From Morinoia aosen (taxonomy: Eukaryota; Arthropoda; Malacostraca; Amphipoda; Talitridae), in NCBI GenBank assembly GCA_030386875.1, contig CM059563.1:33146139-33210138 (forward strand): 64,000 nucleotides of DNA. The letters are read 5' to 3'. The position numbers and the translations under genes are program-made. This document shows, piece after piece, positions 4,101 to 58,734 of the stretch (its first letter is position 1; each line of letters starts with the position of its first letter). The notes under the pieces are model-generated. The model did not search any database. It had not been told where the DNA came from and saw only the letters and a program-made list of their open reading frames with translations.

Positions 4101-7100
4101 TTTTCAACTCTTCTATTTGCTAAGTTTCTAGAATTTTTGTGGTTGTTTTTCATCCACTCATTTTTGCTCTAATTTACGCTTTGCTCTGAGGACACCTTTG
4201 GTTTTTTCAGCTCTCCTACTTGCCAAGTCTTCACGGTTAGTTTTCTTAGTTATTTTTTGCTGTTTTTTTTTTACTCAGGAAAACTTTTTTGTGGAGTGTG
4301 GGATTCATCCGTCACACCTTTAAAAGCTGGTCTATTTTCATTATTGCTCCTGCTCAAATTCCCTTCAATTTAAACTAATCGAGGCATCCAATTTCTCAAA
4401 CGATAGAAATTATTTCTTTACTGCTGCTGCTACCATTACTTATTTTTCTCTTTAAACCATTAATGATGAATAGAATGTCTCAAGCTATCACTGCATTGCA
4501 TTTGAGCGAAATTAACAATAATTAGAGGTTATTTTGGTGTTTTCAGAACTGTGGCTTGTGTATTGTACTGTTAAGCACGCCAGTTTTTACTATGTTTAAA
4601 CACTTTGATCGCAACTTGCCCACTGGTGAGAACGGAGGGGATTTCCATAATGCTGGTGACCCTGTGCATACTACCAACCAGTAGTCACCAACTCAATTTT
4701 CCTAAGTACTTGATCAAAGCTAAAAGAAAGCAAGATTTAATTAATAATTTTTGGTATTTACAAAATTGCTTGCAACAATTGGCATTAAATTTGAGTTAAA
4801 TATTGAACCCTAGTTTTACCAATTGTGGCTCAAGTGTTAACCTATGCAGTATTGAATTTGACAGGAAGCGATGGTGGGCCTGAGCGATCTATACTCCCAG
4901 ATGCGAGAGGACGATCTGTGGGCCGGACTATGGCAGACGTATGCCCACTACCCAGAGACCAAGCTCGTAAGTGCCGGTGTTAGTGCTTTTGGCTGTTGTG
5001 CGTGAATTGTTCCTCTTGTTAAATTGCTCATTGTTCATCCTGTGTATACTAGATAAGATTCAATTGTTCCTCTTGTTAAGTTGTTAAATGTTCACCCTGT
5101 GTATCCTACATAAGATTCAATTGTTCCTCTTGTTAAGTTGTTAAATGTTCACCCTGTGTATCCTAGATAAGATTCAATTGTTCCTCTTATTAAATTGTTT
5201 ATTTTTCAATCTGTGTATCTTAGATGAGATTTAGTTATTCCTCTTCTCCGTTCTGCACTGTATCTAGAATAATGTCAATTTTAAAAGGCGCGGACAGTCT
5301 GAATTGATGAAATTATGAATGTGTTTTTATTCTGTTATGATGTGCCAGAAAAAACACTGATTCAGGCCTAATAACTGTGAAGTTCCAGTTTAATTTATCT
5401 TCTTCAAACCTGTATCGTGAGGTTGAGTCTTCCTTGATAACTCTTATGCATTATGCCGCAAGTTTTTGAAGGAGTTTTATGAAGCCACAAATTTTTTTAT
5501 TGCCACTTTATGTTAATTGTTTCACGTTAACGGGGTAGAGCAGTGTTGAGAATTTTTTATTTCATTCTCTCACCCCCACTTAAGGAGATACTACTATTGT
5601 ATCCCTGGGAGCCAACACTCCCAAAGGAATTATGCGAGGTCCCAAGCTAAGGGTTGGGTAGGCCTTCTTTCTGTTGAAATAGAATAGGTTTTTGTTTTGG
5701 TACAGACTTTTTATTCTCGGCTCACTGCTGTCCTGTTTTTCAGCACTTACTTTCCTCTTCAACTGTTATCTCGTTTCATTAACCTCTTTCTTGGCTTAAT
5801 GTTTTTATGCTCCTTGTGCGTAGATTCTGCATTCCCTCAACTCCATACTAAATGATGCCTTCATTCTTCCTCTCTTTGAACATCTTTGTTGTGGTTAACG
5901 CTAGGAGAGGCTAGAACTTTCTTATAATCCATCAATCATCCATTCTCTCGCATTAGTTAATTTTTGCATTTTCTAATTTTCAGGCTGTGACATTTGAGCA
6001 ACATGGCTTCATGGAGCAAGCGGTGGCTGCGTATGAAGTGGCCATGAACAAAGGCAGTACCGACATGGCCATCAGGGCTCTGCCCCCTCGCCACAATGCT
6101 GAGGTCAAGCTCTGGGAGCGCCAGTGGCTCAGGTGATCTCACGCAGCTGTGCAGCCCTGAATTGTAATGTTGTGTGTTTGTGCCTGGCTTAGGTGTGCAG
6201 ACCTTGATTGTTGTGTGTTTGTGCCTGGCTTAGCTGTGCAGTCCTTGATTGTTGTGTGTTTGGGCCTGGGTTAGCTGTGCAGACCTTGATTGTGTGTGTT
6301 TGTGCCTGGCTTAGCTGTGCAGTCCTTGATTGTTGTGTGTTTGGGCCTGGGTTAGCTGTGCAGACCTTGATTGTTGTGTGTTTGTGCCTGGGTTAGCTGT
6401 GCAGACCTTGATTGTTGTGTGTTTGTGCCTGGCTTAGCTGTGCAGTCCTTGATTGTTGTGTGTTTGTGCCTGGGTTAGCTGTGCAGACCTTGATTGTTGT
6501 GTGTTTGGGCCTGGGTTAGCTGTGCAGACCTTGTTTGTTGTGTTTGTGCCTGGGTTAGCTGTGCAAACCTTGATTGTTGTGTGTTTGTGCCTGGGTTAGC
6601 TGTGCAGACCTTGATTGTTGTGTGTTTGTGCCTGGGTTAGCTGTGCAGACCTTGATTGTTGTGTGTTTGTGCTGGCTTAGCTGTGCAGACCTTGATTGTT
6701 GTGTGTTTGTGCTGGCTTAGCTGTGCCACTCTTGTATTTTGTTGTGTGTTGCATAACTTTATATGTGTTGTCCTGCGGATAGCACAGCTCTTACTTGTAT
6801 TTCGTCTTGTATGCTGTTCCTTACTTCCTGCAAAGGTTGCATTCAAAGTTCAATTAAATATTTTTAATGACTTCTGAGTGGGGTATTTCCTTTGATGAAG
6901 GTTAAGTAGGATTAAATATTTTGTCTTGCTATTCTTCACGAATTATGTTTGAGTATGTGTTGAAATTTTGCATCTGGCTAAGTGTAGGTATCTCCACTTC
7001 GATGCTTGGTGTGCTGTTCAGAAGTTCTGATGATACTGGTAATACCAGTGTTAGGCTGTCTCATAGCTGCACGATTTGATGCTTTCCATGAACATGAACT

Positions 7101-16100: not shown

Positions 16101-19100
16101 GTTGTACAAAGTGATGTGGAGGCACATCACGTGACGACTACTTTGTGTTAGCAGGTGTGAGAACGAAGTGAAGGCCAGGAAGTACATCGCGAAGGTGTTT
16201 TGGCTGCTGAGCTTCGAGCCTGTGAGCGGATGTCAGCTGACGGACGCCCTGGACAAGTATGGGTGTGGGGTGCCCCCGCTGCAGTGGCTCGCCTGGATCC
16301 CGCAGCTCCTCACGTGCCTCGTCAGGCGAGAGGGCAAGGTGCGTCTGTCGCCCGTGCTGTGGTGACGTGCGTCTGTCGCCCGTGCTGTGGAGACGTGCGT
16401 CTGTCGCCCGTGCTGGGGTGACGTGCGTCTGTCGCCCGTGCTGTGGTGACGTGCGTCTGTCGCTCGTGCTGTGGTGACGTGCGTCTGTCGCTCGTGCTGT
16501 GGTGACGTGCGTCTGTCGCCCGTGCTGTGGAGACGTGCGTCTGTCGCCCGTGCTGTGGTGACGTGCGTCTGTCGCCCGTGCTGGGGTGACGTGCGTCTGT
16601 CGCCCGTGCTGGGGTGACGTGCGTCTGTCGCCCGTGCTGTGGTGACGTGCGTCTGTCGCCCGTGCTGTGGTGACGTGCGTCTGTCGCTCGTGCTGTGGTG
16701 ACGTGCGTCTGTCGCCCGCGCTGGGGTGACGTGCGTCTGTCGCCCGTGCTGGGGTGACGTGCGTCTGTCGCCCGTGCTGGGGTGACGTGTGTCTGCCGCC
16801 CGTGCTGGGGTGACGTGCGTCTGCCGCCCGTGCTGGGGTGACGTGCGTCTGTCGCCCGTGCTGGGATGACGTGCGTCTGTCGCCCGTGCTGTGGTGACGT
16901 GCGTCTGTTGCCCGTGCTGTGGTGACGTGCGTCTGTCGCCCGTGCTGTGGTGACGTGTGTCTGTCGCCCGTGCTGTGGTGACGTGCGTCTGTCGCCCGTG
17001 CTGTGGTGACGTGCGTCTGTCGCCCGTGCTGGGGTGACGTGCGTCGGTCGCCCGTGCTGGGGTGACGTGCGTCTGTCGCCCGTGCTGTGTGACGTGCGTC
17101 TGTCGCCCGTGCTGTGTAACGTGCGTCTGTCGCCCGTGTTGTGGTGACGTGCGTCTGTCGCCCGTGCTGTGGTGACGTGCGTCTGTCGCCCGTGCTGTGG
17201 TGACGTGCGTCTGTCGCCCGTGCTGGGATGACGTGCGTCTGAGGCCCGTGCTGGGATGACGTCCGTCTGTCGCCCGTGCTGGGATGACGTGCGTCTGTCG
17301 CCCTTGCTGTGGTGACGTGCGTCTGTCGCCCGTGCTGGGTGACGTGCATCTGTCGCCCGTGCTGGGTGACGTGCGTCTGTCGCCCGTGCTGGGGTGACGT
17401 GCGTCTGTCGCCCGTGCTGGGGTGACGTGCGTCTGTCGCCCGTGTTGTGGTGACGTGCGTCTGTCGCCCGTGCTGTGGTGACGTGCGTCTGTCGCCCGTG
17501 CTGGGATGACGTGCGTCTGAGGCCCGTGCTGGGATGACGTCCGTCTGTCGCCCGTGCTGGGATGACGTGCGTCTGTCGCCCTTGCTGTGGTGACGTGCGT
17601 CTGTCGCCCGTGCTGGGTGACGTGCATCTGTCGCCCGTGCTGGGTGACGTGCGTCTGTCGCCCGTGCTGGGGTGACGTGCGTCTGTCGCCCGTGCTGGGG
17701 TGACGTGCGTCTGTCGCCCGTGCTGGGGTGACGTGCGTCTGTCGCCCGTGCTGGGGTGACGTGCGTCTGTCGCCCGTGCTGGGGTGACGTGCGTCTGTCG
17801 CCCGTGCTGGGGTGACGTGCGTCTGTCGCCCGTGCTGGGGTGACGTGCGTCTGTCGCCCGTGCTGGGGTGACGTGCGTCTGTCGCCCGTGCTGGGGTGAC
17901 GTGCGTCTGTCGCCCGTGCTGGGGTGACGTGCGTCTGTCGCCCGTGCTGGGGTGACATGCGTCTGTCGCCTGCGCTGTGGTGACGTGCGTGGTCGTGTTG
18001 TGTCCAGACATTGGTGTGAATGTGCTAGGGCGTGTAGTGGTGACGTGCGTGGTCGTGTTATGTCCAGACATTGGTGTGCATGTGCTAGGGCGTGTAGTGG
18101 TGACGATAACGCTCATGTTGTGTCCAGTCATGGGGGTTCATGTGCTGTTTATTTCTAGAGAGTTGAGGAGCCTGGCATAATAAAATGTGTCTTGTTGCAG
18201 GTTATCCTGAATTTGCTGAATAATGTGGGCAAGCTGTACCCTCAGGCAGTGTACCTGCCAGTCCGCACCCTGTACCTCACCCTCCGCATTGAGCAGCGAG
18301 GTCGCTTCAAGAGAGGTACGATTTCATTCCTTCCTATATTCCTTTTCAAAACCCTAAAATAATAATAATATATTTCTTTTTCCACAATTTTCACGTTTGG
18401 AGAAGTTACTGGAGAACTTGTAAAGTTCAAGTGCGAAATTCCAATTGAGCAATCCCTTCTGTTCAGTGGATATGCTCCGTATTGCTCATTGAAAGATAGT
18501 CCGTGCAGTTAAATTTATTGTTAATTGAGTGTATTATAAATTTTTCAAGTAGAGAAACACGAGACTAGCCTTCGTACTTCTGCCCTACCTTATCAGAGTT
18601 AGCTGAGAGAAATCTGTATACACTGTCTTCTGAGACGCAACTGTGAGGAGTTCTAAATGGTGGTCAATGAAAGAGGTGTACAATGGCTGCGCTTCACGTG
18701 AGAGATAATGGAACATTCTGATGGATGTTGCTCTGGTCTATCGCAGATGACAATTGTTCTGTTCTGTTGGAGATGATTGCTCTGGTCTATTGGCTTCTGG
18801 ACAAGAGTGTCCTTCAGTAGTCAAATTAGGCATTTTGTTGTATCGGCACTCCCCCTCAGGGGGATACAACTATTGTATCTATGGGAATTAGCGCTCACAG
18901 GGGAAAAATGTGAGGGCCAGAGCTGAGAGTGAGGTAGGCCTTCTTTTTGTTGAAATAAAATGTTTTTTGTTATGTTAAGGACCACCTTTTTTCGGTTCAC
19001 TACTGTCCTGTTTTTCAGCACCTCTGACTTTCTTCTTCAACTTTTATCTTATTTCATGAACTTCTTTCTCATCTTACTGTTTCTATGCCCCTTCAGCATA

Positions 19101-22100
19101 GATTCCTCATTTTCTTATCTCCATACTAAATGGTGCCTTCCTCCTTCCTCTCTTTGATACGCTCTATTTTTGCAGCGGTTAGGGAGGCTTAAACTAACTT
19201 ATAATCTTATAATCTTGTATCGGCACTCTTCTTGGAGCTTAAGTGAACAATGGGTGCAGTTGCGAGACCAAAGGATTTTCCCTTGCCTTCTTTTGTGTCT
19301 CTCTTATGATTAGTGTCACTGATTATGATCAGTGATGAAGCGATGCATTAAAAATTGCTAGTGTACAGCCGAAGCCGGTCAGACATCAATAATAATTGAT
19401 GCCAGTTACTCAAGTAATCAATCGATTATTAATTAATTATCTTATAGTGATTGATATTAATGATCCAATTAATTAATGAATAATTATCAATCAATGAAAT
19501 AACCAATGATTAATTATTAATCAATTAAATAATCAATGATTCATCATTGATGAATGAAATAAAACAATGATTATTGATGTGAGTAATTAATGATGCCTGT
19601 CGACCAGACCCGTCGGGCGCGTCGCAGGCCAGTACGCAGCCCGGCCAACAGCAGTCCGGGGAGACGATCAGGGCTACGGAACCCATGCGCCACTGCTCCC
19701 GCATCCTGCAAATCCAGCGCGACTATCACCCCACCGTCCTCGTCTCTCTCGAGGGCATCGTCGACCAGGTCAATAGTGCCTAACAATTGCCTACCATCAG
19801 TAAACTCGTCTCTCTCTCGAGGGCATCGTCGACCAGGTCAATAGTACCTAACAATTGCCTACCATCAGTAAACTCGTCTCTCTCTCGAGGGCATCGTCGA
19901 CCAGGTCAATAGTACCTAACAATTGCCTACCATCAGTAAACTCGTCTCTCTCTCGAGGGCATCGTCGACCAGGTCAATAGTACCTAACAATTGCCTACCA
20001 TCAGTAAACTCGTCTCTCTCTCGAGGGCATCGTCGACCAGGTCAAAAGTACCTAACAATTGCCTACCATCAGTAAACTCGTCTCTCTCTCGAGGGCATCG
20101 TCGACCATGTCAATAGTACCTAACAATTGCCTACCATCAGTAAACTCGTCTCTCTCTCGAGGGCGTCGTCGACCATGTCAATAGTACCTAACAATTGCCT
20201 ACCATCAGTAAACTCGTCTCTCTCTCGAGGGCATCGTCGACCATGTCAATAGTACCTAACAATTGCCTACCATCAGTAAACTCGTCTCTCTCTCGAGGGC
20301 ATCGTCGACCATGTCAATAGTACCTAACAATTGCCTACCATCAGTAAACTCGTCTCTCTCTCGAGGGCATCGTCGACCATGTCAATAGTACCTAACAATT
20401 GCCTACCATCAGTAAACTCGTCTCTCTCTCGAGGGCATCGTCGACCATGTCAATAGTACCTAACAATTGCCTACCATCAGTAAACTCGTCTCTCTCTCTC
20501 GAGGGCATCGTCGACCAGGTCAAAAGTACCTAACAATTGCCTACCATCAGTAAACTCGTCTCTCTCTCGAGGGCATCGTCGACCATGTCAATAGTACCTA
20601 ACAATTGCCTACCATCAGTAAACTCGTCTCTCTCTCGAGGGCATCGTCGACCAGGTCAAAAGTACCTAACAATTGCCTACCATCAGTAAACTCGTCTCTC
20701 TCTCGAGGGCATCGTCGACCATGTCAATAGTACCTAACAATTGCCTACCATCAGTAAACTCGTCTCTCTCTCGAGGGCATCGTCGACCATGTCAATAGTA
20801 CCTAACAATTGCCTACCATCAGTAAACTCGTCTCTCTCTCGAGGGCATCGTCGACCAGGTCAATAGTACCTAACAATTGCCTACCATCAGTAAACTCGTC
20901 TCTCTCTCGAGGGCATCGTCGACCAGGTCAATAGTACCTAACAATTGCCTACCATCAGTAAACTCGTCTCTCTCTCGAGGGCATCGTCGACCAGGTCAAA
21001 AGTACCTAACAATTGCCTACCATCAGTAAACTCGTCTCTCTCTCGAGGGCATCGTCGACCATGTCAATAGTACCTAACAATTGCCTACCATCAGTAAACT
21101 CGTCTCTCTCTCGAGGGCATCGTCGACCAGGTCAATAGTACCTAACAATTGCCTACCATCAGTAAACTCGTCTCTCTCTCGAGGGCATCGTCGACCAGGT
21201 CAATAGTACCTAACAATTGCCTACCATCAGTAAACTCGTCTCTCTCTCGAGGGCATCGTCGACCAGGTCAATAGTACCTAACAATTGCCTACCATCAGTA
21301 AACTCGTCTCTCTCTCGAGGGCATCGTCGACCAGGTCAATAGTACCTAACAATTGCCTACCATCAGTAAACTCGTCTCTCTCTCGAGGGCATCGTCGACC
21401 ATGTCAATAGTACCTAACAATTGCCTACCATCAGTAAACTCGTCTCTCTCTCGAGGGCATCGTCGACTAGGTCAATAGTACCTAACAATTGCCTACCATC
21501 AGTAAACTCGTCTCTCTCTCGAGGGCATCGTCGACCATGTCAATAGTACCTAACAATTGCCTACCATCAGTAAACTCGTCTCTCTCTCGAGGGCATCGTC
21601 GACCAGGTCAAAAGTACCTAACAATTGCCTACCATCAGTAAACTCGTCTCTCTCTCGAGGGCATCGTCGACCATGTCAATAGTACCTAACAATTGCCTAC
21701 CATCAGTAAACTCGTCTCTCTCTCGGAGGCATCGTCGACCATGTCAATAGTACCTAACAATTGCCTACCATCAGTAAACTCGTCTCTCTCTCGAGGGCAT
21801 CGTCGACCAGGTCAATAGTACCTAACAATTGCCTACCATCAGTAAACTCGTCTCTCTCTCGAGGGCATCGTCGACCAGGTCAATAGTACCTAACAATTGC
21901 CTACCATCAGTAAACTCGTCTCTCTCTCGAGGGCATCGTCGACCATGTCAATAGTACCTAACAATTGCCTACCATCAGTAAACTCGTCTCTCTCTCGAGG
22001 GCATCGTCGACCAGGTCAATAGTACCTAACAATTGCCTACCATCAGTAAACTCGTCTCTCTCTCGAGGGCATCGTCGACCAGGTCAATAGTACCTAACAA

Positions 22101-25100
22101 TTGCCTACCATCAGTAAACTCGTCTCTCTCTCGAGGGCATCGTCGACCATGTCAATAGTACCTAACAATTGCCTACCATCAGTAAACTCGTCTCTCTCTC
22201 GAGGGCATCGTCGACCATGTCAATAGTACCTAATAATTGCCTACCATCAGTAAACTCGTCTCTCTCTCGAGGGCATCGTCGACCAGGTCAATAGTACCTA
22301 ACAATTGCCTACCATCAGTAAACTCGTCTCTCTCTCGAGGGCATCGTCGACCAGGTCAATAGTACCTAACAATTGCCTACCATCAGTAAACTCGTCTCTC
22401 TCTCGAGGGCATCGTCGACCAGGTCAAAAGTACCTAACAATTGCCTACCATCAGTAAACTCGTCTCTCTCTCGAGGGCATCGTCGACCAGGTCAATAGTA
22501 CCTAACAATTGCCTACCATCAGTAAACTCGTCTCTCTCTCAAGGGCATCGTCGACCAGGTCAATAGTACCTAACAATTGCCTACCATCAGTAAACTCGTC
22601 TCTCTCTCGAGGGCATCGTCGACCAGGTCAATAGTACCTAACAATTGCCTACCATCAGTAAACTCGTCTCTCTCTCGAGGGCATCGTCGACCAGGTCAAT
22701 AGTACCTAACAATTGCCTACCATCAGTAAACTCGTCTCTCTCTCGAGGGCATCGTCGACCATGTCAATAGTACCTTACAATTGCCTACCATCAGTAAACT
22801 CGTCTCTCTCTCGAGGGCATCGTCGACCAGGTCAATAGTACCTAACAATTGCCTACCATCAGTAAACTCGTCTCTCTCTCGAGGGCATCGTCGACCATGT
22901 CAATAGTACCTAACAATTGCCTACCATCAGTAAACTCGTCTCTCTCTCGAGGGCATCGTCGACCATGTCAATAGTACCTAACAATTGCCTACCATCAGTA
23001 AACTCGTCTCTCTCTCGAGGGCATCGTCGACCATGTCAATAGTACCTAACAATTGCCTACCATCAGTAAACTCGTCTCTCTCTCGAGGGCATCGTCGACC
23101 AGGTCAAAAGTACCTAACAATTGCCTACCATCAGTAAACTCGTCTCTCTCTCGAGGGCATCGTCGACCAGGTCAAAAGTACCTAACAATTGCCTACCATC
23201 AGTAAACTCGTCTCTCTCTCGAGGGCATCGTCGACCAGGTCAATAGTACCTAACAATTGCCTACCATCAGTAAACTCGTCTCTCTCTCGAGGGCATCGTC
23301 GACCAGGTCAATAGTACCTAACAATTGCCTACCATCAGTAAACTCGTCTCTCTCTCAAGGGCATCGTCGACCAGGTCAATAGTACCTAACAATTGCCTAC
23401 CATCAGTAAACTCGTCTCTCTCTCGAGGGCATCGTCGACCAGGTCAAAAGTACCTAACAATTGCCTACCATCAGTAAACTCGTCTCTCTCTCGAGGGCAT
23501 CGTCGACCAGGTCAAAAGTACCTAACAATTGCCTACCATCAGTAAACTCGTCTCTCTCTCGAGGGCATCGTCGACCAGGTCAGTAGTACCTAACAATTGC
23601 CTACCATCAGTAAACTCGTCTCTCTCTCGAGGGCATCGTCGACCAGGTCAATAGTACCTAACAATTGCCTACCATCAGTAAACTCGTCTCTCTCTCGAGG
23701 GCATCGTCGACCATGTCAATAGTACCTAACAATTGCCTACCATCAGTAAACTCGTCTCTCTCTCGAGGGCATCGTCGACCTGGTCAATAGTACCTAACAA
23801 TTGCCTACCATCAGTAAACTCGTCTCTCTCTCGAGGGCATCGTCGACCATGTCAATAGTACCTAACAATTGCCTACCATCAGTAAACTCGTCTCTCTCTC
23901 GAGGGCATCGTCGACCATGTCAATAGTACCTAACAATTGCCTACCATCAGTAAACTCGTCTCTCTCTCGAGGGCATCGTCGACCATGTCAATAGTACCTA
24001 ACAATTGCCTACCATCAGTAAACTCGTCTCTCTCTCGAGGGCATCGTCGACCATGTCAATAGTACCTAACAATTGCCTACCATCAGTAAACTCGTCTCTC
24101 TCTCGAGGGCATCGTCGACCAGGTCAATAGTACCTAACAATTGCCTACCATCAGTAAACTCGTCTCTCTCTCGAGGGCATCGTCGACCATGTCAATAGTA
24201 CCTAACAATTGCCTACCATCAGTAAACTCGTCTCTCTCTCGAGGGCATCGTCGACCAGGTCAATAGTACCTAACAATTGCCTACCATCAGTAAACTCGTC
24301 TCTTTCTCGAGGGCATCGTCGACCAGGTCAATAGTACCTAACAATTGCCTACCATCAGTAAACTCGTCTCTCTCTCGAGGGCATCGTCGACCAGGTCAAT
24401 AGTACCTAACAATTGCCTACCATCAGTAAACTCGTCTCTCTCTCGAGGGCATCGTCGACCAGGTCAATAGTACCCAACAATTGCCTACCATCAGTAAACT
24501 CGTCTCTCTCTCGAGGGCATCGTCGACCAGGTCAATAGTACCTAACAATTGCCTACCATCAGTAAACTCGTCTCTCTCTCGAGGGCATCGTCGACCAGGT
24601 CAATAGTACCTAACAATTGCCTACCATCAGTAAACTCGTCTCTCTCTCGAGGGCGTCAGGAAATTTTACTCATTTTTTCATCACAACCGAGCCAGTAGGA
24701 TTGGGACCAAGACCTAATGATGGAGGCTTCGTTGCTTCACTCATTTGCTGTTGCTAGTATTGGTTCCCCAGAAATTTACGAGATAAACAGTGTTACTGAA
24801 TATGGCTTTTACATCTTTTGCTTGAAATTCATGTATTGTGTAATGATACATTGGAAAATGAATTTGAATATCTTTTAACAAGATGAAAGTGTGGAAATAT
24901 TCACGTTGGTTGCTCTGTTGCTCTGTCAATTCACGTTGGAATTTTTCTTGACTTTCGAAGATAGGAGGTTGTTGAACACATCATTCGAAATTATTCCATT
25001 CTTTATTTAGACTTTTACACTCTTGTACTTTGGAAGTGCTTTGATTCAAGGTTTTGTAACTGGATTAGATGTTTTGGAAAAAGCGTGCATGTGGAAAAGT

Positions 25101-28100
25101 GTGCAGAGTTCTGTATTGGCAAGGATTGCTTTTTATTGTTTTCCAAAGAGACATGTTCATAACTCACGTTTTGTTAGCGTTGTGGCTCATGATACGTGCG
25201 TTGGTGTTACAGATGACATGGTTCAGAGAGAACTGGTATGAAGAAGTTCTCCGACAGTTGCGGCAGGCTCTCGCCAAGTGCTACTCTGTAGCTTTCGAGA
25301 ACTCAGCTGCAGTGTCGGAAGCCGTCATCACGCCACACACTCAGTCCTTTGTCAAGAAACTGGTCGCCACTTTTGGACTGGGCATAGGTGAGGCTCTCTT
25401 CAGCTCAGCTGCTGTTTTGTAACCATTTTATACTGTAATGTGTCATCAGTTGCAAGTTTAATATTTGTGCTGCTATTGTTTTGTAACCATTTCACCAGTT
25501 TCCAATACAATATTTGTGTTGGTTCCACAATGTCCTATGAAGTACAAATGGTTTTTGGATTTCAACAATCATATCGCAGCTGAAGAATGAGAGGCAATCG
25601 TTAAACATATGCTATCTAAAAAACAATGAAATTGTATCTCCTTGAAACTCACTTCGTCACTCTACTTAAAGGATTTATATTTGAATTGGCATTCCTTTTG
25701 ATGTGAAACACTAAAAAAATTGTGGTGTGAATGCCCGGCTTGATCTTATGTGTTACATCGTTGTAGTTGGATTGCCAATGAGTGCATTGAGCAAGCCATG
25801 ATAGCACCATACGCTCGACGGTGGGCTTACCATAGCAGAATTGCATGCACTTCTACCAATGAGCTGCATGCTAGTAAAATGTTGAAAGAATAGTCACACA
25901 TTTCCTTGAAGTTACAAATATCCGTGTAACGTTGGTGATGAGACCATTAGCATCGACGAATAGTTTCTTTCATTGGGTGTCTTTGCTTTTTTTGAGTCAA
26001 TTATAACATGATTCTGAGAATGAATAAATAAGCTAAGCTAAATGCTCTGTGAAATACTAGAGTCCATTATTGATTTATGAAGAGCTTCTTCCATGCAAAT
26101 ATATTGACCTGACGCTATGCACCTCCTCAGAGAACCTAAACAGCTCAGGGGTGGGCGTGAGTGGCTGTGGCAACACAAATACGAACAGCAGCGGTAACAA
26201 CAGCAGCAACAGTAGCAGCAGTAACAACAGCAGCTCAACAACACACCACACCAGCACAGGCTCCGAGTCCCTAGCTAGACGAGCGCAGGCCACGGTGCAG
26301 GACCCCGTCTTCCATAAGCTCAAAGGGCAGTTCACTGCAGACTTTGACTTTGCCCAGCCTGGGTCTGTGAAGCTTCACAACCTCATCCACAAGCTTAAGA
26401 AATGGATCAAAATCCTCGAGGCTCGCGTCAAGCTCCTACCAAAGTAATGATGTGTTATCGATGAACTACTGCGTGGTGTTAGTGTGTGTGAAATGTTGTA
26501 CTGAGTGGCTTCTGTACTTGATCTGAATAGGAATTGCTAGTTAATTACAATTTTCTTTTACCTCTTCAAGTATAAACTATGCTTGGCACATGATAAGTAC
26601 TTACCATCATAACCCGTTGGGGGCACCAAGTCAGTACAGCAAACTAGTGAAGTGGTTTATCTCAGTATGTGCTACACTCGGTCATTGCCGTGGCTGTTTC
26701 TTCCTGTAGCCTTCAAGTCTTTCAGTAAAATGAACTGAATGAGGGTTTTATCTGGCTGAGTTCTGTGGTTATATTTTGTGTCGTAGAATGGTACCCATTT
26801 ACCGCAGTGTATGATTTTCACTTGTTGTATAGTGTGGTTCATTTCAGGTGGTTCCTGATCGAAGACAAGTGCAGGTTCCTGAGCAACTTCAGTGTACAAA
26901 CTGCGGAGGTGGAGCTGCCTGGCGAGTGTCTCATGCCTAAGGTGCGCGTCTTCATTCTTGCTGCTCGTGGCCGAGGCTTATCTCTATATTGACTCTCAAT
27001 CCTTCAGTGCAATGCATACCTAGTTCTTTCAGTATCTGTTCTTCGTGCTGCATGAAAACATTCATTTCTTTTTCAGAGCGTGCAAATTTGGTACGGGGCA
27101 CATTTTATTTGGTAGTGTTCGGGTTCTGATTACTTAGTGCATTTATTGAAAGTTTTGAGCAGACCTGCCTGAGGCTCTTCATAATTTCCAAGTGTCTATT
27201 ATTTCTTGAGGATTAAATATCCCGCGTCCTGTTATCGTTTTCGCAGTATGGCTTATGTACCTTCTTCTACGCATCTCGTGTAAATGAAAATGTTCACAGT
27301 TCAACTTCACGAAAATTTATTTAGCTATCAAATTGTCAAGGTCTTGTATATTTTGCAATTGCATTAACGTGCATAATAATGGCAAGCTTTGGACTTCAGA
27401 AAGAATTAGTACTATTTCAATACTAGTATAATTCATTTGTTTTAACAGTAGAATATATAACTTTTTACAAACCCAAATTAAGTTCTAGTGTACATAGCCT
27501 ATGACTCAACGGTGCTGAAGTGCCATTGCTGGAACGTATGACAAAATATTCATCAGTTTTATTTACGGGCAAGAATAGTCCTTTCTTCTCAAAATGTTTC
27601 AGTCGTCAGGTTTTTCTTTCGTTTCTCCCTCACCTCAGTTTTTCCTACGCCAACCTCTGTGACCTTCTTAACTCCCGGTTGCTAAACCGCGAGATGTTCT
27701 TGTACTGTGACGAATGGGAGAAACAATGAGTGTCCCATTCTATAACAGGTGCACGATTTGAAATAGTTTGAATTGAGTACATCGTGAATAAGAGTTGAAA
27801 TAGTATGAAATGACCACATGGTGATTATTTGTAGCTAAGTTGCAATGCAACTCGACACCTCCCTGAGTTCTACATTGCTCAAATGTATTTCACTGCGCCA
27901 TTGTTGGGTGAGCAGAACTCGCGCTACTACATCCGCATCGCGCGCTTCCTGCCGAAAGTGGACATCGTGCACAAGCACCTGTCTGCCCCCCGCCGCTTGC
28001 ACATCCGGGGGCACAACGGCCGTGTGTACCCCTACCTCGTGGTCAGCGACTCCAGCCTCAGCGAGTCGCGCAGGGAGGAGCGCCTGCAGCAGCTCTTCAG

Positions 28101-31100
28101 GATGCTCAACGTCTTCTACACGAAGCAGAAGGTAGCGTCGTGTCCGGACTGCAATCCTCCTGGTCTCTTCTCTGTTATGACCTACATAATACAGTATTAC
28201 CTGCTTAACTGCGGAGATACGTACCAATTTTCTAGCGCAGCTAACGATGCAAGCAGCTAACCAGATATTCGGTAGCAAACAAAATCTCATTTTTAGAAAT
28301 AAATGCAATACCTAAGGTAAGGGTTTCTATACATCTAATAATTATAATCAAAATGCCTCATTAACTTCAAAAGATAAACATGTATGGTAATACAATAATT
28401 TTCGTTTGATGGAGTTTTTAATTTATTGTAAACATTATCGTATTTATTAATTCGTATAATTGCCTAAGTTGGATACAAAACTTACTTAAATTGTAATATT
28501 TTACCAATGAAAAAAAAAAGGCGTTATTCCCACAAAAGTTTGTTTTTAAAAAACTTGTTTATGTTTAAGAAATAAAATTATAAATCTTACAAGTTACAAC
28601 AACAATCACAACACAAAGCTCGTATGTTAATTTATCTTTATAATAATTAACAAGTGCATGAATAGAATCTCTAAAGCTAGTTACCCTTGTGAACGACGAA
28701 AGTCCTTCACTGCCCCATTCGCCAAACTGTTTCTGTTGCGCGTTCCTATGCGTGACATTGCGGTCCGTACTGTGCGGCACCATTGGTGCTGGAACCGCGG
28801 GCTGGAACCTCAGCATGCCGGTTGACACCAGAGGCGGTTCCATGCAAGCGGTCGTGCTGACCGGTCGTTCCATTTACCGTGTCCTGAGTTACGTACAGGC
28901 AGTCGCACTGACCCGTCGATTTGCTGTGCTAAGCTACGTTCCAGCTGTCGTGCTGACGTGTACCGTGATTTATACGCTGTGTGTCTTGTTATAGCAAGTG
29001 TAATAAAACTAACTCTTGACTGTCGGCCGCAACTAAGTCTTCTCTGTTTGCCATCGTTTTGACCGCCGTCCTGCTCTGTTAAACCTTACTACTGTGCAAG
29101 CAGCCAATTATGTTTTAACCGCTTTTAACAAGTGTTTAAAAAAAAACTGTGCTTTTAAAAACCCTGTTAAATTTGCCAATAAATTTAACAAACTTATTGA
29201 CTTTTAAATCAACTCTGGAAAAGGAAACTTGAAAAGAACTGACAAATTTTACTGGTTTGTTGCTGAGGCCGTTGGCTTGAAGGCTTGGCCTCCTGACATA
29301 GAAAAGCTAGGGGCCCGGTGACACCCTTTTTTTCATATTCTAGTTCTGATACTTTTTCTGCTGTCACCTTGTTATTTTGATCATCAAGAAAAGGCTCAAC
29401 ATACTCTTGAGGAGCAAAATTTTCTGCAATGTCGCTGTAAACCTCCATTAACTCTTCATTGTTACTTAAATTTTATGGCTCTCCAACGTTTCTTCAATAT
29501 TAAGTGATGTTACATTCTAAAAACCAGCTTTCACTGCTAAACTCTTCACATCGTTGTTTTTTTTTGGATTTTCTAGGTGCAACATTTGAACATTCTCCTT
29601 TCTTCTTTTGTTACTCTGCTGAGTTTCACTCGATATTTTTAGCAGTACAAGGGTAATTAAAAGGCTTGTGCTGTTGATAAAACATTTGTAAAGATAGTGA
29701 TGTATGATAACTGCCCCTGAAGTTGTGCAACTTTCGATGAGCAGTCACAAAAACAAGTGCGCATCTTAAAAGGTTTGCAGCTAACCAGCTAAGCAGACAT
29801 TACTGTTTGTCCTTATTTGACATGCCTTTTTCTCTAATGACCTTTGAATTACTTTGTTCTGCATTGCCATTACTTTTGCTGAATTTAAATACCCATGACC
29901 TCAAATGCCTTCCTTTCCTGTCCATCCACATCTCGTTACACCATTGCAATCAGCGGATTTTTGCACGAGTTCGTAATATTTGGTGTCGTGTTCCATGTAA
30001 GGGGCTTTTAGCTTTAAGATGCTAGATTGCCTAATTTTTGCTTCATCACCTAGTGAAGCAAAGATTTTTATTCTTTTTTATAATTATATTCAGTGTTGTT
30101 CATAATGTTGTTGTTGACCGTATTGTTCATGAGCTGCACTCGTGCGGGTGCCATTGTTGAACACTTAGTTGAAGAGAATTGACGTAAATATGACTGTTTG
30201 CTTGAATGGTTTGTCTTTATTTAACTCCCGGAAATAATTCTTTTCATGACTCAATAACCGAGAGTAGCTGTAAAATATAAACACAGTTAGGAGTAAAAAG
30301 GCATTCAAGTGTAAATTGTGGGATTTGTACTGAGTATATTTCTTGTAGCTTTTCGGGAATGATTCTTCGTGTTGAGGGACGTGTCTGGTGTGTCTTGGAG
30401 TTTGTGCTGCCACCCACATTTTCTGGGCACGAGAAAGCTCTGTATTCATGGGAAGTTCTCATCTATGACTTAGGAAAGCTTCTATGTTGCTGAGTAAATT
30501 TATAAGGCATTCTTAAATGATTTACATCTGTTACAGGAGTCAAGTCGCCGCTTCATCCACCTGTACGTGAGCAGAGTGGTGGCGTTCTCTCCACAGAACC
30601 GGCTGGTAGAAGACAACCCAAGCTCGCTGAGCCTCATGGACATCTACCGTGAGAGGTGTCAGGTCAAGCACCTGGAGCCTGATACTCCCATCACTCGCTA
30701 CTACGAGCGGCTGGCAGGCGTCCAGGCTAGAGGAGCACAAGCATCTCATCAGGTCAGTGTAGATTTTTCCCCACCACTCTACCTTATTTACAGTACCATA
30801 GATTCAGTGTCGATTTATCTGCACTACATTACTGTATTTGCAGTGCCATTGATTCAGTGTAGATTTGTCCACACCACTATGCTGTATTTACAGACTCCAA
30901 GAGTGCCATAGAGACTATCTAGAGTAAGGCCAGTACCCCCCTCTAGTTGTTGAAATCTTTGGGAGGCTGATGCGCCTTCTGCTAGACACCAGTCGTATCA
31001 AGATCTGGGTGCCTGAACACGTTGGTGCCTCAGAAAATGAGAGAGCTGACCTTGAGGCAAAGCGTGCTGCCGCCACTATAGCGATGATCCTGAACCTATC

Positions 31101-34100
31101 AGTCACTAGCCTTAATAATTAGCTTCGTATTAAGCAGCGTTGAGGGACCTATGACAGAATTAATGAGACGTTGTGAACCATTTTGATTTGTGGAAGGTGG
31201 AACAAACTATGCTAGTGGACCACATCGAATTGCTGCAGTCGCCGGATGGAGGTGGTCTTATGCTTCCTTTGTATCGGTTATGTCAAGCTGACCCACAGCC
31301 GTCTCATGGAATGAATGTCTTTCTCAACCACTTGGCTAACTGAGTCGCGATCCTCTTACCTATGGGCATTCTCTCGCCAAGTGTGCTGCCCGACCAAAGT
31401 AATGGTGTAGCGTCAATGATGAACTACTGTGTTGTATTAGTGTGTGTGACATGAGCGGAATCTGAGCTAAGGCCCTTCAACATTCCACCCCACCCTGAAT
31501 ATCTTTCTGGAATTGAGTGATACCCTTCTAGAGGTACGAAGTATGGAATCATGCAGCAAGACTCTGGTTGAAGTATGATAGCTGAAATATTGGAGCCTTT
31601 CGAGGCAATGCTCTTCTTTTCTTTCATCTGAGACTGATAATATGCAAACAAAAGCGTACTCGGACTTACTGTAATTCTGCATTGTGTCCCAAACGAAATA
31701 CTTTGTTGTAATTATAAGCACCATGCACAAATGTCAACCTTTATATCATACGGCGACATGCTGTTAGTCAGCGAAGAGCTGGCATCTTACAGCACTTCAC
31801 GTATTTACTACGCCACGTTAAGCTTATATGGGAGGTTCTAATGTCATTTGACTCGAACTAGCCTGATTTAATTGAGCTCACACATTAACATTTGTTGAAA
31901 TAACTTCATTTACAATTCACAATTTTAATAGATTAATTTTACATACATTAAAGGATCAATATTTCACTTGCATTTGTTGGAAGCTGGGCATGCATTCAAC
32001 ACTTCTATCGTTGAAAATCTGAGTTATGTATGTTTTGTGGCGTGTAGGTGCTGCGTGACATCGTAAAGGAGGTGCAGAGCGGCATGGTGCCGCGCACAAT
32101 GCTGAGCGAGTGGGCACTGGCAGCATTTCCTAATGCCACGGACTACTGGACCTTCCGCAAGATGGTCACTGTACAGCTGGGAGTGCTGGGCCTCATGGAG
32201 TACGTGCTGCACTTGGCCCGTCTTTACCCGGACATGCTCTATCTCCACCGAGACTCTGGTCTTATTAATGTCGCCTATTTCAAGTTCAACGTGGACGACA
32301 CCAAAGGTATGCGCTACTGGTGTCAATTTCGGACATGTTAGTTGCTCTATTGGTCAAAAATAAAATAATGGGATTTTTGATCAAAATTAATGTTGCCTTT
32401 TTCAAGTTCGACTTGGACGACACTAAAGGTATGCACTGCTGATGTCAGTTTTAGGCATGACAGGTGCTTGGTTGGTCGAAGATAAATGTGATTCTTGATT
32501 GAATTACAATAGAGCTTCTCCCCTCAAGGGGATACAACTATTGTATCTATGGGAATTAGCGCTCCTTGGGGGAACTATGTAAGGGCCCGAGCTAAAGGTT
32601 AGGTAGGCTTTCTTTTTGTTAAAATAGAATAGGTTTTTGTTTTGTTACGGACCATTTTTTTTGCGGTTCACTGCTGTCCTGTTTTTCATCACCTACTACT
32701 TTCTTCTTCAACTTTTTCTAGTTTCATGATCTCCTTTCTCAGCTTTCTGTTTCTGTGTCCTTTCTGCTTAGATTCCGCGTTTCCTTAACTCCATTCTAAA
32801 TGGTGTCTTCTTCCTTCCTCTCTTTGGATAGCCTTTGTTGCGGATAGGGAGGCTTAAACTAACTAATAATCTAATCTAGAAAAGAGCTTCTAGCTTGATA
32901 TGTAGAGATAAAGTTCTTGTTCTGGAATTTAGAGCTAAAGAAAGTTGACTAATTTTGTTTGCAAAAGAGGCGGGGAAGATTCATTTACTATGAGTTGTAG
33001 ATAGTTGCGAGTGAAACAATTACAAACCTAGTATCTAACTGTCATCAAAATTAGCATTGTGAGCCAAGTGCGCTTTGAGATTTCTGGCAGCCTTCCAGCA
33101 AGGGAACAAATTCCGAAGTATAGCATTAAAAATAGTCCATGTACGTGCAGTTTTATCTTAAATTTAGTTAAGCGTACGAGACAAGTAAGTATGCTAATAT
33201 TAAGCTGCGAGAAAGAGTTGATTTTTTGGCTGTTTATTAATTATGTGATTTTTTCATGACTTTAGCGTAGAAGTTTTGTCCTGCACGTTATTCATGCCAG
33301 TGGATTAAGTTTAGAAATGATTTATTGTCTGGTTTTCTTAATTTAGTTCTATCGTTTGTTTTAGTTTTATTTTGCATGTGTCAGAGAATGTAAGGTTTAA
33401 GTGTGCTTTTGAATGCTGTGTAGGTAGGGGCTTTCCTAGTATCATACGTGACTTAGCGGTTACTTCAATTTCATGAATTATGGCAGTCAAAGTGGTTTAA
33501 AATATGTTGCCGAAGGTTAGAATTTTGTTTAGTTTCAAGTATTTTGTGTTGGGAACTTCGAAGAGATAATCAGTGGTATTAGGTTAGGTCAAGAATTCTT
33601 AGGTTCATGAAAGAATAATTTACGTGGATATTGTATCCTACGTTGGAGCAAAAATTCGCAATGTGAATAAGTTATCAATTTAAGTGTTGTCTCTGCCATG
33701 TGAGGCTTCAATGCCACGTAGAATATACAGATGCAATGTGCGCAGAAGTGATTTTATTGCTGTTTTTTGGATGATGTCATTGACTGCAAGGAAAACTAAA
33801 ATGGACTACAATAAGGGTATTATTACATAAGATGTACAGCGTCGGCCCTTAGAGGAGAACAACTATTGCATTTATGGGTATTAGTGCTTCCAGGGGGAAA
33901 TTGAGATGCCCTGAGCTGAGAATTTGTTAGGCCTTCTTTTTGTTATAAAATGTTCACTTTGTTAAGGACCATCTTCTTTCGTTTCACTGCTATACTGTTC
34001 TTCCACACCTACTGCTTTCTTCTTCTTCAACTTTGATTTTATTTCATGAACTTCTTTCTCAACTTACTGTTTCTATGCCCTTCCTGCATAGATTCCTCGT

Positions 34101-37100
34101 TCCCTTATCTCCATACTAAATGCTGCCTTCTTCTTTCCTCTCCTTGGATCGCCTTTGGGGCGGATAGGGAGGCTCAAACTAACAATCTAATCTAAGCTAC
34201 TATTTGCAGGCGAGTTAGACGGAAGCCGCGCTGTGCCTTTCCGCCTGACGCCGAACTTGGCGGCGCTGTGCACCAGCGTGGGCGTGACGGGCCCCCTCAC
34301 GGCGTCCATGATGGTGGCGGCGCGCTGCCTCGCCACGCCTTCCTTCAAGCTCCAGTCGCTGCTCAGGGCCATCCTCAGGGATGAAATCATCACCTGGCAT
34401 AAGGTAGCTGCTCATTTGGTCCTTCTTTCGTCTTCGGCGTTTGGCGCTTCTGTGATGGAGACTTGTTTTAGCATGTCCTTGATATTATTTCTGTGGTCGT
34501 ATTTTCATTTATTTACCTATGCAATTCTCATGATCGTTCTTTTGTTGCGAGAACCCAACTTTTTGTATGGTGTAAAGACGGTTGTGAAAATACGGCCATG
34601 AATGTGGAATTAGATATGCACCAGATTGAAGTGCTTGGTTTTTTAGTTGGTTACAGTATACAGGGTATCCCACCAAAAAGGAAACCCCAAATGAAAATGA
34701 TATAATTCTAAAACTATTTGCGGTATTACTATTATTTCGACTACATTCTTCATTGAATGCTTTTGAACAAATGCTATACATTTTGATAAAATACCTTTAG
34801 AAATACTTACCGTGTAATTACTGGAAATCTTCAGAAACATCTAAGATCTTCAGAAGTATTTACCCCATAATCACTCTACCGAAGGCTCTCAGAAACATGT
34901 TCGCACAGGAAAGTCATACAATAAAATGTACATGCTAGCCACACTTAACTTTATAGGAAATTTCACTGTTCCCTTTACCAATTTTACTGGTGCCGAACTG
35001 TGTTATCATCATTTGTATCGTAAAGGGAGCAGTCTATAGACAAGGATATTTGATAAGGATTACTTGTCCATAACAAGTATTCCAGCCCACCCACACCTTC
35101 CCGTGGTGGTACCGTTAATATACCCACTAGGAGTTGCAACTCATTACATATCGTTTATGTAAATTGGCAACATAGTGATCATAAGCTTATTTATACGAGT
35201 GTTGTCCGTGGGTAGAACCAACGTGGGGGCGCCCACTAACATCTGGGTCTTTTATCTTTAGTTTTGTATGTTTATCTTGAACCTGTGTTTTGAGCATTGA
35301 ATAAAACTCGCATATCGCGAGTAAAAAGGAAACATACACCCCTGGTCCCGGTGGCCTTGTGCCCCGAGGACCAGGCGATATGAGGAGGGGCGGTGGAGGC
35401 CCGCGGCCTAACCGGGGACGCACCGGGAAGGACCAGAAGCAGCGAGCGAAGGAGCCAACAAAAGTGACGACCCAGCCAAATGAAGTAAAATCTATCAGGA
35501 CACCAATCGCCGCAATGACAGGCGAGCCAGCAAGTGTCTGTACAACTACGTGTGGATCTTCACTGATGGCAACGAACCATACAGCTCATAATGGAGAGCA
35601 CCAAAAAAATATCACCGACCGCATCACCAACATAGAGAGGAACCTTAACCAGTTGGTTAGATCGATGAGCAGGGTGTTACCGGATCGTGACATCTCGAAA
35701 CTGAATACCGAAGACAGTAACTCTGACATACCCCCAACCTGCATCGAGGAAAGAATTAAAAACCTGGAAAACACCGTCGAGGAAGTAACCCAAGCTCTAT
35801 CAGCCCATTTGTCACCTCCGGAGGAACAAGGGAAGGTCACCCAGAGTGCGAGACATAGGAAGAAGAACAAATTTGTCCCTCTCAATGTTACCGAACAGCC
35901 ACCACAGCGGAGCTTCACACGCTTCTTTACCATGAAGTTTACACCCGAAACAAAACGTAAGATAGACCCCTACCTGGTGAAAAACGTAATTCGCTCAGCC
36001 ACCGGATCTCCGCCCAAATCCATCACCACCAGTGGAAGGGAGAGCTTCACACTCGAGGCCAGAGACAACAGGCAAGGCCAGGCACTGTTGACCATCACTA
36101 ATATAAACGGAGTGCCATGTGAAATCTTCGCCCACCCAAAACTCAATAAATCCAAGGGACTCATTTATATCAACGAATACAACATGGAGAACTTCAGCGA
36201 ATTCGAAACTGGGCTCAAAGAAAACTATAACATCAGCGAAGTAATAGACGCCACCTTCATCAAGACAAGATACGAACAAACAAGCGCGATAATTCTAGAA
36301 TTCAAATCAGAGTCTCCCCCCGATTTCATATACATTCCCGGCGAACGATCAGACACCCGAGTATACCCATATATCGACAAACCAATGCACTGTGCCAACT
36401 GCCAGATGTACGGACATACCAAAAAGCGTTGCAGCCGAGCCACAACCTGTGGAAGGTGCGGGGCAGTGGGGCACGGCAGCAGTCAGTGCCTTGCCTCTGA
36501 AGCCGAATGCATCCACTGTCACGGCCCTCACCAAGTTAAAGACAAAACCTGCCCAAAGCAAATCGAAGAGGAACAAGTACTTACAATCCAGAACAATCAC
36601 AAGGTCGGGAAGCGCCGTGCTAGACAGATGCTGAACAGCCCAACTGAGTCAAATGAAAAACACGCCGCTCCCTACGCCACTCACTTCAAATGTACTTTGG
36701 ACTCTAACGAAAAGCGCAAAATTTCACCCTGGGTGCTCGAGCGAAGCCTTCAACTTGAGTTGGGCGAAAAGCCAAAGAGAATTACATCACAGGATAAAGA
36801 CTCATTTATCATTGAAATTGCCACCAAAGAACAAAGTACCCTAATCCGTAATGTAAAAACCTTAAACAACATCCCTGTCTCCATAGCTGAACACCCTTAC
36901 TTCAACTCAGTGAAAGGCCTCATATATCTATATGAGTACGACCTCTCCAATTTCGAGTGCTTCCGGGACGGACTCATGGAAGACTACGGACTGAGTGATG
37001 CAGTGAGAGCTACCTGGATCAAACCGAAAAACCCTGTCTCCCAAGCAATCTTACTTACATTCAGGCAAAACCTCCCAAACTACATAACCATACCCGGAGA

Positions 37101-40100
37101 ACAATCACTAACCAAGGTATTTCCATACGTGCCGCGCCCCATGTTCTGCAAGAAATGTCTGGAGTATAACCACACCCAGAAACGATGCACCAGGCCTGAA
37201 ACGATATGCGCGAGATGCAACAACGTAAACCACGATTCCGGCGAATGCACGAGCATCAAGATAGAATGCCACAACTGCGGCAAAGACCACTTCGCAGGCT
37301 CCTATAAATGCATTGAATTCAAGTACCAACAAGAAATCCTTGCAATCCAGCACAAATGCAAACTGAGCAGAGTGCAAGCAAGACAAAAGCTGGAGAGTGA
37401 ACAACACCAATATCACAGGAACTACGCTTCTGCCGTAACATCTACCGCTGCACAAACACCCAGCCGACAACCTCCAACACCGATTAAACAAGTGGGGACA
37501 GCTCCTCCAGCTCTTCCACTAGGGCCCTCTCAGCTCTCAGACGGTACGCAAAGGAAAAGAAAAAACTCTGAAAGCAACGAAAAACCATCAGGAAAAAAGC
37601 AGGTAGCGGAAGCAGTCTACGCTGATCCAAGCACAGGAGAAATATTTTCTACCCCAGTACAAATTACACCAGATTACGACTCGGCAATGAGCGACAGCGA
37701 AATTACAAGTGAGAACAACCCGACCGTTAGAAGCGAAACCAGAAGAATTTATAACCAGTACCAAAAAGAAGTCAAAGGAAACCAAAATGAATAACGGAAT
37801 CTGCATCCTACAGTGGAACTGCCAGGGTGTTCGAGCCAAAAAGAGCGAACTTTTAGAACTAATTAACTTGCATAACCCATATATTGTTGCTCTCCAAGAA
37901 ACTAAACTTTGGCACAACTCAAATTTTTTCATACCCCATTACAATCTACTAACCAAACATGGCCACTTTAACGTCACGCCTCATGGAGGAGTTGGACTGC
38001 TTATTCATGAGTCAATTCCATTCCAAGAAGTCACCATAACTTCTGCCATCCAGGTCATCGCAGCCACTGCCCACATCACTCGACGGATAACATTTGCGTC
38101 GCTGTACACCTCAAGAAGCCACCCCATAACCCAGGAAATAATGAACGAACTAATAAATCAACTACCTCCGCCAATCATTTTGATGGGGGACTTCAACAGC
38201 TATAGTACAACTTGGGGTTGTGAAACGATAGATGCCCGTGGCCGGATAATTGAAGAATTTATAGACCAACATAACCTAACTCTCCTCAACACAGGAGCAC
38301 ACACACGAGTTTCTTACAACTCTGAGTCCGCCATTGACCTAACCCTGGCATCTCCTCGTCTGAGTGTGGACTTGGTATGGGAGACTTGTAGATCTCCGGA
38401 AGACAGTGACCATATTCCCATCATAGTACGACTAATTAATGCACAACGTAACGATCAGAAACGCTCAATGTGGAACAACAAAAAGGCAGACTGGACGTCT
38501 TACGAGGCGCACCAAAACTGGGAAAAACTTAAAATCTCTGACGAGCATACATGCTCTGAAGCTCTCAGCACCTTTATCGACACTTTAACAGCAGTTGCAA
38601 ACGATTGTATTCCAACCATAGAACTCACAAAATTCTTTCCGAAGCCCTACTGGAGCGCGCAGCTGACACAAACACGCACCAACCGCGAACGCCTCTATCA
38701 AAAATTCAGGCAAACAAAATCTGCACAAAATGCCCTACGCTGGAAAAGAGCCAGGGCCATCCACAGAAACCTTCTGCGAGAGGAGAAGCGGAAGGCATGG
38801 ACAGCATTCACCAGCACATTTACGAAGAACACGCCAATGACCCGTATTTATGAAAACATCAGAAAAATTAAAGGCAGACCTCAAAGACAGTTGTCAATAT
38901 TACAAGAAAATAATATAAGCTACTCTACCGTTCCAGAAATAGCAAACAAATTAGCAGAAACATTTAGCTCAGTTAGCAGTGCGACGAATTACCCTCAGGA
39001 ATTTTTACGAAGAAAACAACGTGCAGAAACTAACCAATTGGACTTCTCATCGGACAACAACGAAACATACAACACCGCATTCTCCCTCGCCGAACTGGAT
39101 TCTGCCTTGGAGACTACGAAAAATACATCACCTGGTGCAGATGGAATTTCATACCAAATGCTTAAGCACCTTCCAGAAATTGGTAAACAAAACTTACTGT
39201 CTCTCTACAACAAATTATGGCTTCATTCGTATTACCCGCCTACCTGGAGAGAAGCAGTAATAATCCCTTTTCAAAAACCTGGAAAGACCCCACATTCGCC
39301 TCACAACTACAGGCCAATTGCGCTCACGAGCTGCATCGGGAAGGTTCTGGAACGCCTCATCAACAATCGACTCATCGACTATTGCGATATGCACGGCCAC
39401 CTCAGCAATATCCAGTGCGGGGGTCGCCGGGACAGGTCCACCGTTGACCACCTAATCCGTCTCGAAACCATTATCAGAAACTCCTTTGTCCACAATGAAC
39501 ACTTCGTTAGTGTCTTCTTCGACCTCAAAAAGGCATATGATACCACCTGGAACTACGGCATTATGCAAGACCTCCATCATCTACATCTCCGGGGAAGACT
39601 GCCTCTATATATCCAAGAGTTTTTACGGGACCGTACTTTCAGGGTACGAGTAAATAACCACCTATCCAATCCATGCCCTCAGGAAGAAGGGGTCCCACAG
39701 GGTTCAGTTCTTTCCGTTACCCTCTTCATTATCAAAATCAACGAAATAGCTTCACAGATCCCTAAAGACCCACGTTTCCATGCATCACTATATGTAGACG
39801 ATTTCCAACTTGGCTACCGACACAGTGACATCAGCATCATTGAAGCCAAACTTCAAGAATGCATCAACAGAGTGGCACTGTGGACGCAAAACAATGGATT
39901 TTCCTTCTCGATGGATAAATCTAAGGCTGTCCATTTTACCTCCCTTCCAGGCCTTCAAGTACCACCTACCCTGAAAATCAGCAACAAAACCATCGAATTT
40001 GTGGACGAAGTTAAGTTTCTTGGGCTCACGTGGGACCGAAAATTGACCTGGAAAACCCATATCAACAACATCAAATCAAGCTGCAAGAAGAACTTCAACA

Positions 40101-58366: not shown

Positions 58367-58439
58367 ACCCGGAAAGATCAACACCGTTGCTATATGCCAC
58401 CTATAATCTCATCCCTTCCACATTTCTTCCCACCTTTAT

Positions 58440-58730
58440 TCCACCTTAACGTACAACATTACCGAAACTAATATCCTTCAGAACTGTCAAGGACTACGTT
58501 CAAAAAAGGATGAACTCGCCCTTCTAACCAATGACTATAACCCTATTACAATTAATGACTATAACCCTCTTCAAGAAACAAAGATGTGGAATAATTCTAA
58601 CTTTAACCTCCCACACTATGTGTGCCTCCGTCGAGATGGCTATTTTAACGTTACCCCCGCACGGAGGAGTAGCATTATTGATCCACGAATCTGTTCCATT
58701 TCAAGAAATCCACCTCCTCACGCCATCCTG
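58440..58730 (+). pseudogene. I-clade retrotransposon 2 ORF2, 5' remnant of endonuclease
   Basis: ILQNCQGLRSKKDELALL, LQETKMWNNSNFNLPHY and, after a frameshift near 58655, HGGVALLIHESVPFQE match the start of ORF2 in element 1. A short AATGACTATAACCCT stretch is duplicated (58528 and 58553). The ORF stops where the 5' end of element 3 begins. Confidence 0.8.
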
Positions 58731-58734
58731 TCCT

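Follow-up and report, generated by a model that had tools for sequence, protein, structure and literature searches.

Minisatellites that span an exon-intron boundary have been termed mirages in amphioxus, where they were described in Adh3 and in the globin genes BflGb6 and BflGb9; in the accessible portions of that report many copies carry AG/GT splice signals, both 5' and 3' boundaries are hit and haplotypes differ in copy number (PMC3087553). According to the same portions, BflGb6 has 6 and 3 units of 150-160 bp in two haplotypes, the Adh3 units are 10-72 bp in length and somatic instability is on record for the Adh3 mirage (PMC3087553). A mirage is also expected to leave regular splicing undisturbed. 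Here, we describe a 68-bp minisatellite that lies across the 5' splice site (donor) of exon E14 of the TRRAP gene of the amphipod Morinoia aosen, in a 64,000-nucleotide stretch of the genome assembly (GCA_030386875.1, contig CM059563.1, positions 33,146,139-33,210,138, forward strand) that is referred to below as the window. As in the amphioxus mirages, the TRRAP unit crosses the boundary (32 nt of exon end and 36 nt of intron start, in 72 copies), the copies carry splice signals (GT is intact in all 72 and AG/GT is present in 44; the slash marks the splice site) and the length of the array is unstable, with 72 and 51 units in two near-identical copies of the gene that are either alleles or paralogues. 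Judged by features that can be read from sequence, the array would be classed as a mirage. It differs from the amphioxus cases in its arthropod host, in having 68-bp units in 72 and 51 copies, and in that a single essential gene carries arrays in several introns and further genes have them too. With it, the range of mirages widens from amphioxus to an arthropod, in which the arrays are longer than those of the amphioxus globin genes. Among the matches listed in a literature search that was sparse in subscription papers, no title reported such arrays in arthropods. New features are the number of copies (72 and 51), the occurrence in an arthropod and the recurrence of the pattern, both at several junctions within a single essential gene and in further genes.

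E14 and its neighbouring exons match human TRRAP (PDB entry 7ktr, E = 6.5e-139). Twenty exons (E3-E22) were mapped using this match together with splice rules, and when joined they give 1561 codons free of stops. E14 occupies 19608-19768 on the + strand, with the acceptor GTCGACCAG/ACCCG and the donor GACCAG/GTCAAT, its start being forced by the reading frame. The next exon, E15 (25213-25387, +), follows the array and a unique remainder of the intron (24657-25212, +) that ends in GTTACAG. The E14/E15 junction is covered by 25 of 26 aligned related proteins, 24 of which continue without a gap as the TRRAP of the window does; the motif LEGIVDQM is exact in 20. The sequence that reads otherwise is that of Octopus, and Caligus has no coverage at this position. 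FastTree analysis of 27 sequences pairs the TRRAP of the window with P0001 (64% identity, probably transcript-derived) and places it within the arthropods, with the arachnids on one side and copepod and insect sequences on the other (local supports of 0.96-1.0).

The array (19739-24656, +) consists of 72 donor-bearing units and a partial last copy. Tandem Repeats Finder (TRF) reports it at 19743-24654 with a period of 68, 72.2 copies, 98% matches and a score of 9456, and counting the anchor GTCGAC gives 72 donors, with first intron bases running from 19769 (donor 1) to 24599 (donor 72) at a spacing of 68, with one exception of 70. It sets in within E14 at 19739, so that the last 30 nt of the exon form the first exon-derived copy, and its far end, near 24656, is an incomplete copy of the exon-derived part. 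An earlier sequence-only reading had proposed that the unit amplifies a genuine TRRAP exon-intron junction and that the true donor is the first of 72; the analysis bears out both points. The composition proposed there (exon end, donor and intron start) also stands, with different lengths: the intron-derived part is 36 nt rather than 38 nt and the exon-derived part is 32 nt, the true exon end being 30 nt and the copies carrying an extra CT. Reading past donor 1 gives Val-Asn-Ser-Ala-stop (Val-Asn-Ser-Ala/Thr-stop had been predicted for use of any later donor), and in-frame joining is kept by donor 1. As 68 is 2 modulo 3, the units are out of frame.

The donors of the window array comprise 43 CAG/GT, 27 CAT/GT, one TAG/GT and one CTG/GT. 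The unit-type table shows all nine letters of donor 1 (CAG/GTCAAT) in 32 of the 72 units; donor 1 and 31 later donors are thus letter-identical, and among these position, not strength, would have to decide. A matrix built on 59 donors of the genome gives donor 1 (GTCAAT, 19769-19774, +) 7.09 bits, which ranks it 28th of 59 counted from the weakest, with CAT/GT at 2.67 bits and CAG/GTCAAA at 5.08 bits. The pairing of CAG/GTCAAT with U1 is worth -5.6 kcal/mol (17th strongest of the 20 TRRAP donors) and that of CAT/GT +0.7 kcal/mol. CAT units are mildly clustered (25 runs against 34.2 expected among the 70 CAG and CAT units, p = 0.015), so that their spread along the array, a check proposed by the sequence-only reading, departs somewhat from random. 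Constraint on the GT was not detectable: none of 32 inferred mutation events fell there, and the probability of this by chance is 0.38. The donor core (-3 to +6) took eight events against 4.2 expected and is thus not conserved. Identical neighbouring units number 23 against 16.6 expected in the window (p = 0.036) and ten against 9.8 in a second copy of the gene (p = 0.54); no higher-order blocks of units beyond chance were found in either copy, the longest repeated block being four units in each against null means of 4.8 (window) and 3.7 (second copy).

This second TRRAP copy was found by searching the genome to which the window belongs (1.99 Gb in 29 contigs). It lies on the same contig at C8:35235058-35325000, inverted and 2.1 Mb from the window, and matches over most of the ∼90 kb tested, with an identity of mostly 96-99.8%, ∼91% in one repeat-rich upstream block, and gaps and local rearrangements near its left end. 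All 20 exons are present in equal lengths, with GT at 20 of 20 donors and AG at the 19 mapped acceptors (the start of E3 has no mapped acceptor, hence 19 were compared). The 1561 codons differ at 25 silent positions and no replacement positions; the second copy, with its unbroken exons, thus also encodes an unbroken protein. Its array has 51 units (51.2 by TRF, against 72.2 in the window), which argues against a peculiarity of a single assembly site. Each copy has 16 unit types, and only two are common to both: the consensus and one common variant. CAT/GT, found in 27 of 72 units in the window, occurs in one of 51 in the second copy, where AG/GT is present in 49 of 51; the CAG/GT and CAT/GT variation pointed out by the sequence-only reading (43 and 27 units) is thus real, and the mix is specific to the window copy. 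The three other arrays of more than four units that were compared differ as well, the window and the second copy having 59.2 and 27.2 units of the 28-bp array, 13.8 and 15.8 of the 41-bp array and 4.2 and 5.2 of the 57-bp array. The comparison thus indicates that long arrays change in length and homogenise within each copy, and pairs of copies of unequal length provide material on which functional claims can be tested. One huge palindrome holding the second copy was considered as the arrangement and rejected: a single 600-base probe, placed 0.4 Mb from the window (C8:33.60 Mb), has no near-identical mirror, so the duplication does not extend to that point.

We consider it probable that the TRRAP array is a tolerated, drifting mirage. 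It would have begun when a tandem duplication by chance took in the boundary, with the last 30 nt of E14, the donor and the first 36 nt of the intron, and would later have grown and shrunk by unequal exchange or slippage. If donor 1 is paired with the preceding exon, the whole array would leave with the intron; mis-splicing at a later donor would place four codons and then a stop behind the exon (Val-Asn-Ser-Ala-stop), and the RNA would presumably be discarded. TRRAP would tolerate the array because the copies are intronic, lying 3' of the true donor, and the length and the CAG/CAT mix would drift under little or no selection. With 72 near-identical donors, only the first of which can give the full-length protein, the locus is a ready test of the role of position in 5' splice-site choice.

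Four points weigh against this reading. We infer clean use of donor 1 from the unbroken reading frame. The short arrays are equal in both copies of the gene (39-bp, 2.3 units; 60-bp, 2.2; 50-bp, 2.8; 122-bp, 1.8). The second copy may be another haplotype left in the assembly, which would make it one more allele rather than a second gene; several equal-scoring match pairs lie 0.4-2 Mb apart in this assembly, near-identity by shared words was confirmed for three of them (L023/L024, L029/L030 and L035/L036), and such pairs hint at uncollapsed haplotypes. Finally, the gathering of array starts at TRRAP donors (6/11, p = 7e-5) is unexplained by a purely neutral origin.

This gathering was assessed for the TRRAP arrays with a TRF score of at least 50 and a period of at least 12 (n = 12, including one coding array). 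Of the 11 noncoding arrays, six start within 50 nt of a donor: at E4 (+38), E5 (+35), E12 (0), E14 (-26), E19 (+1) and E20 (-43). Among these is a 28-bp minisatellite of 59 copies (16339-17990, +), the first base of which is also that of the intron at the E12 donor GGGCAAG/GTGCGT; its units open with GTGCGT or near variants, and the copies are without AG/GT. A 122-bp duplication (1.8 copies, 32264-32486, +) crosses the E20 donor, taking in 43 nt of exon, the donor and intron, and a 50-bp array (2.8 copies, 30754-30893, +) starts one base inside the intron at the E19 donor. The 57-bp array (4.2 copies, 5005-5245, +) starts 38 nt past the E4 donor and the 41-bp array (13.8 copies, 6168-6726, +) 35 nt past that of E5. 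On the acceptor side, a 78-bp array (4.7 copies, 44725-45104, +) ends 5 nt ahead of E22.

Kinesin and myosin exons of the same genome were surveyed for similar arrays, using 30 of 126 kinesin and 32 of 79 myosin matches; these 62 matches less nine that were near-identical left 53 exons, the donor and acceptor positions of which were picked by a script, with L075 and L051 corrected by hand. Arrays were called as spanning a junction from TRF, one local alignment test and inspection, with no single blind rule, and for acceptors without the alignment test. On this basis, such arrays occur at at least four donors (L078, L069, L040 and L034) and at least one acceptor (L040). In the myosin exon L078 a 42-bp unit made of the exon end and the donor has seven further copies with at most three mismatches in the stretch examined, and in L069 TCGTCTTCCAGGT is likewise found in seven further copies with at most three mismatches. 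The array architecture of TRRAP E14 is also seen in two kinesin exons, on both sides of L040 and at the donor of L034. The acceptor core of L040 (C11:22590492-22590743, - strand) has 24 matches with at most three mismatches in a 31-bp array upstream; the copies of this array are without AG/GT, and it is the acceptor-side counterpart of the TRRAP array. As other TRRAP introns and other genes show arrays, the array is no curiosity of E14.

It is possible, if rather doubtful, that the splice junctions of this genome act as genuine hot spots of tandem duplication, for example via R-loops or co-transcriptional splicing; this would be an added cause, compatible with a tolerated mirage. The TRRAP starts speak for it: 6/12 lie within 50 nt of a donor when arrays are left uncollapsed (p = 1e-5), the 6/11 given above when each is collapsed to a single unit, with the coding array and the inserted retrotransposon left out (p = 7e-5), and 6/7 among collapsed arrays with a score of at least 150 (p = 1.4e-6). 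So does the survey when both exon ends are taken together at a score of at least 100 (eight arrays against 2.6 expected in the 53 exons, p = 0.006). The survey is less clear for donors alone (four against 1.4, p = 0.052) and acceptors alone (four against 1.25, p = 0.038) at the same score, and for both ends at a score of at least 50 (eight against 4.95, p = 0.13). Random placement of whole TRRAP arrays gives p = 0.40, 0.14, 0.007 and 0.018 for windows of 0, 15, 50 and 100 nt, and the junction windows were picked after seeing the data. In a per-position test, in which a donor-centred 40-mer was sought again within 400 nt, donors were no more often repeated than other positions (4/20 in TRRAP against 28-30% of random intron positions, and 3/38 against 7-11% for the 38 survey donors that met the length and distance limits). 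The start test takes arrays as its units and the per-position control takes each position within long arrays; the two answer different questions. Minisatellites are dense in this genome and some lie on junctions, and a preference for junctions is no more than plausible.

The broader proposal is that in this arthropod lineage junctions are the preferred birthplaces of minisatellites, that arrays of splice-site copies stand at the start or end of a sizeable share of introns, and that the spliceosome copes with these since only the outermost copy is exon-defined and AG/GT units could be erased by further splicing. We regard this as unlikely; if it were true, the genome would be a natural experiment on choosing one among dozens of near-identical donors and a nursery for new introns.

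That the array might erase itself during splicing is improbable. Each CAG/GT unit would be dual-specific, and splicing from unit to unit or a later clean-up following late donor use would restore the exact mRNA, with stepwise removal possible; tolerance of the array would then stem from this repair of splicing errors. AG/GT is present in 44/72 and 49/51 units of the two copies, and the consensus unit contains a donor, CTAAC and a CT-rich run ahead of CAG. The genuine E14 acceptor ends in the 9-mer GTCGACCAG (19599-19607), with which the exon itself also closes at the E14 donor; in the window this 9-mer has no further occurrence on the + strand beyond the E14 acceptor and the array. There are precedents: the accessible part of a study of human UBC reports that AGGT sites in its tandem repeats serve as donor and acceptor, and argues that expansions with such sites are less harmful (PMC10809524). 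The AGGT of the TRRAP unit could act both ways like these and the dual-specific sites of VCX3A; in UBC, however, the repeats are coding and intron length is a multiple of the unit, whereas the TRRAP units are intronic, out of frame and weak as acceptors (PMC10809524, same part). Duplication of a piece holding AG/GT, which yields GT...AG modules, has been described as a route of intron gain in the part available of that work (PMC3443670), and the TRRAP duplication is of this type, except that it struck an existing donor and lengthened an existing intron. The AG of the TRRAP unit directly adjoins its GT, and there is no strong pyrimidine tract just before the CAG. The first of these features resembles the recursive-splicing ratchet points of Drosophila, in which an acceptor is directly followed by a donor; the second does not. 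As an acceptor, GACCAG/GT scores 1.85 bits, with six of 60 acceptors of this genome lower and 33% of background AGs higher; the real E14 acceptor itself has 1.97 bits. CATCAG/TAA in the same unit scores better, and its use would break the frame. Furthermore, 28 of the 72 window units are without AG, and arrays without AG/GT copies also occur (the 28-bp array and the L040 acceptor array).

The sequence-only reading had suggested a splicing decoy, a U1 sponge or dosage control, in which the surplus donors would occupy U1 or delay correct donor choice and in this way set TRRAP output; 32 of 72 donors do share the nine letters of donor 1, itself of average strength here, and late donor use would lead to an immediate stop, but such a function is very unlikely, as the two unbroken TRRAP copies agree neither in the number of units nor in the quality of the donors (72 and 51 units; CAT/GT, which lowers U1 pairing from -5.6 to +0.7 kcal/mol, in 27/72 and 1/51), and such arrays occur at other junctions and in other genes. 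U1 is among the most abundant nuclear RNAs, and a U1 sponge is numerically implausible.

The window also holds mobile elements. A non-LTR (non-long-terminal-repeat) retrotransposon with two long open frames lies at 34956-41905, in TRRAP intron 21, and is absent from the second copy; its ends share an 11-letter direct repeat. A dispersed repeat family of ∼360 bp is present at 5571-5929, 18847-19206, 32510-32878, 33835-34199, 45856-46211 and 47396-47770, and it recurs several times in the second copy. The open frames at 54616-63774, in which stretches resembling zinc knuckles and reverse transcriptase were recognized by eye, look like at least one other non-LTR element.

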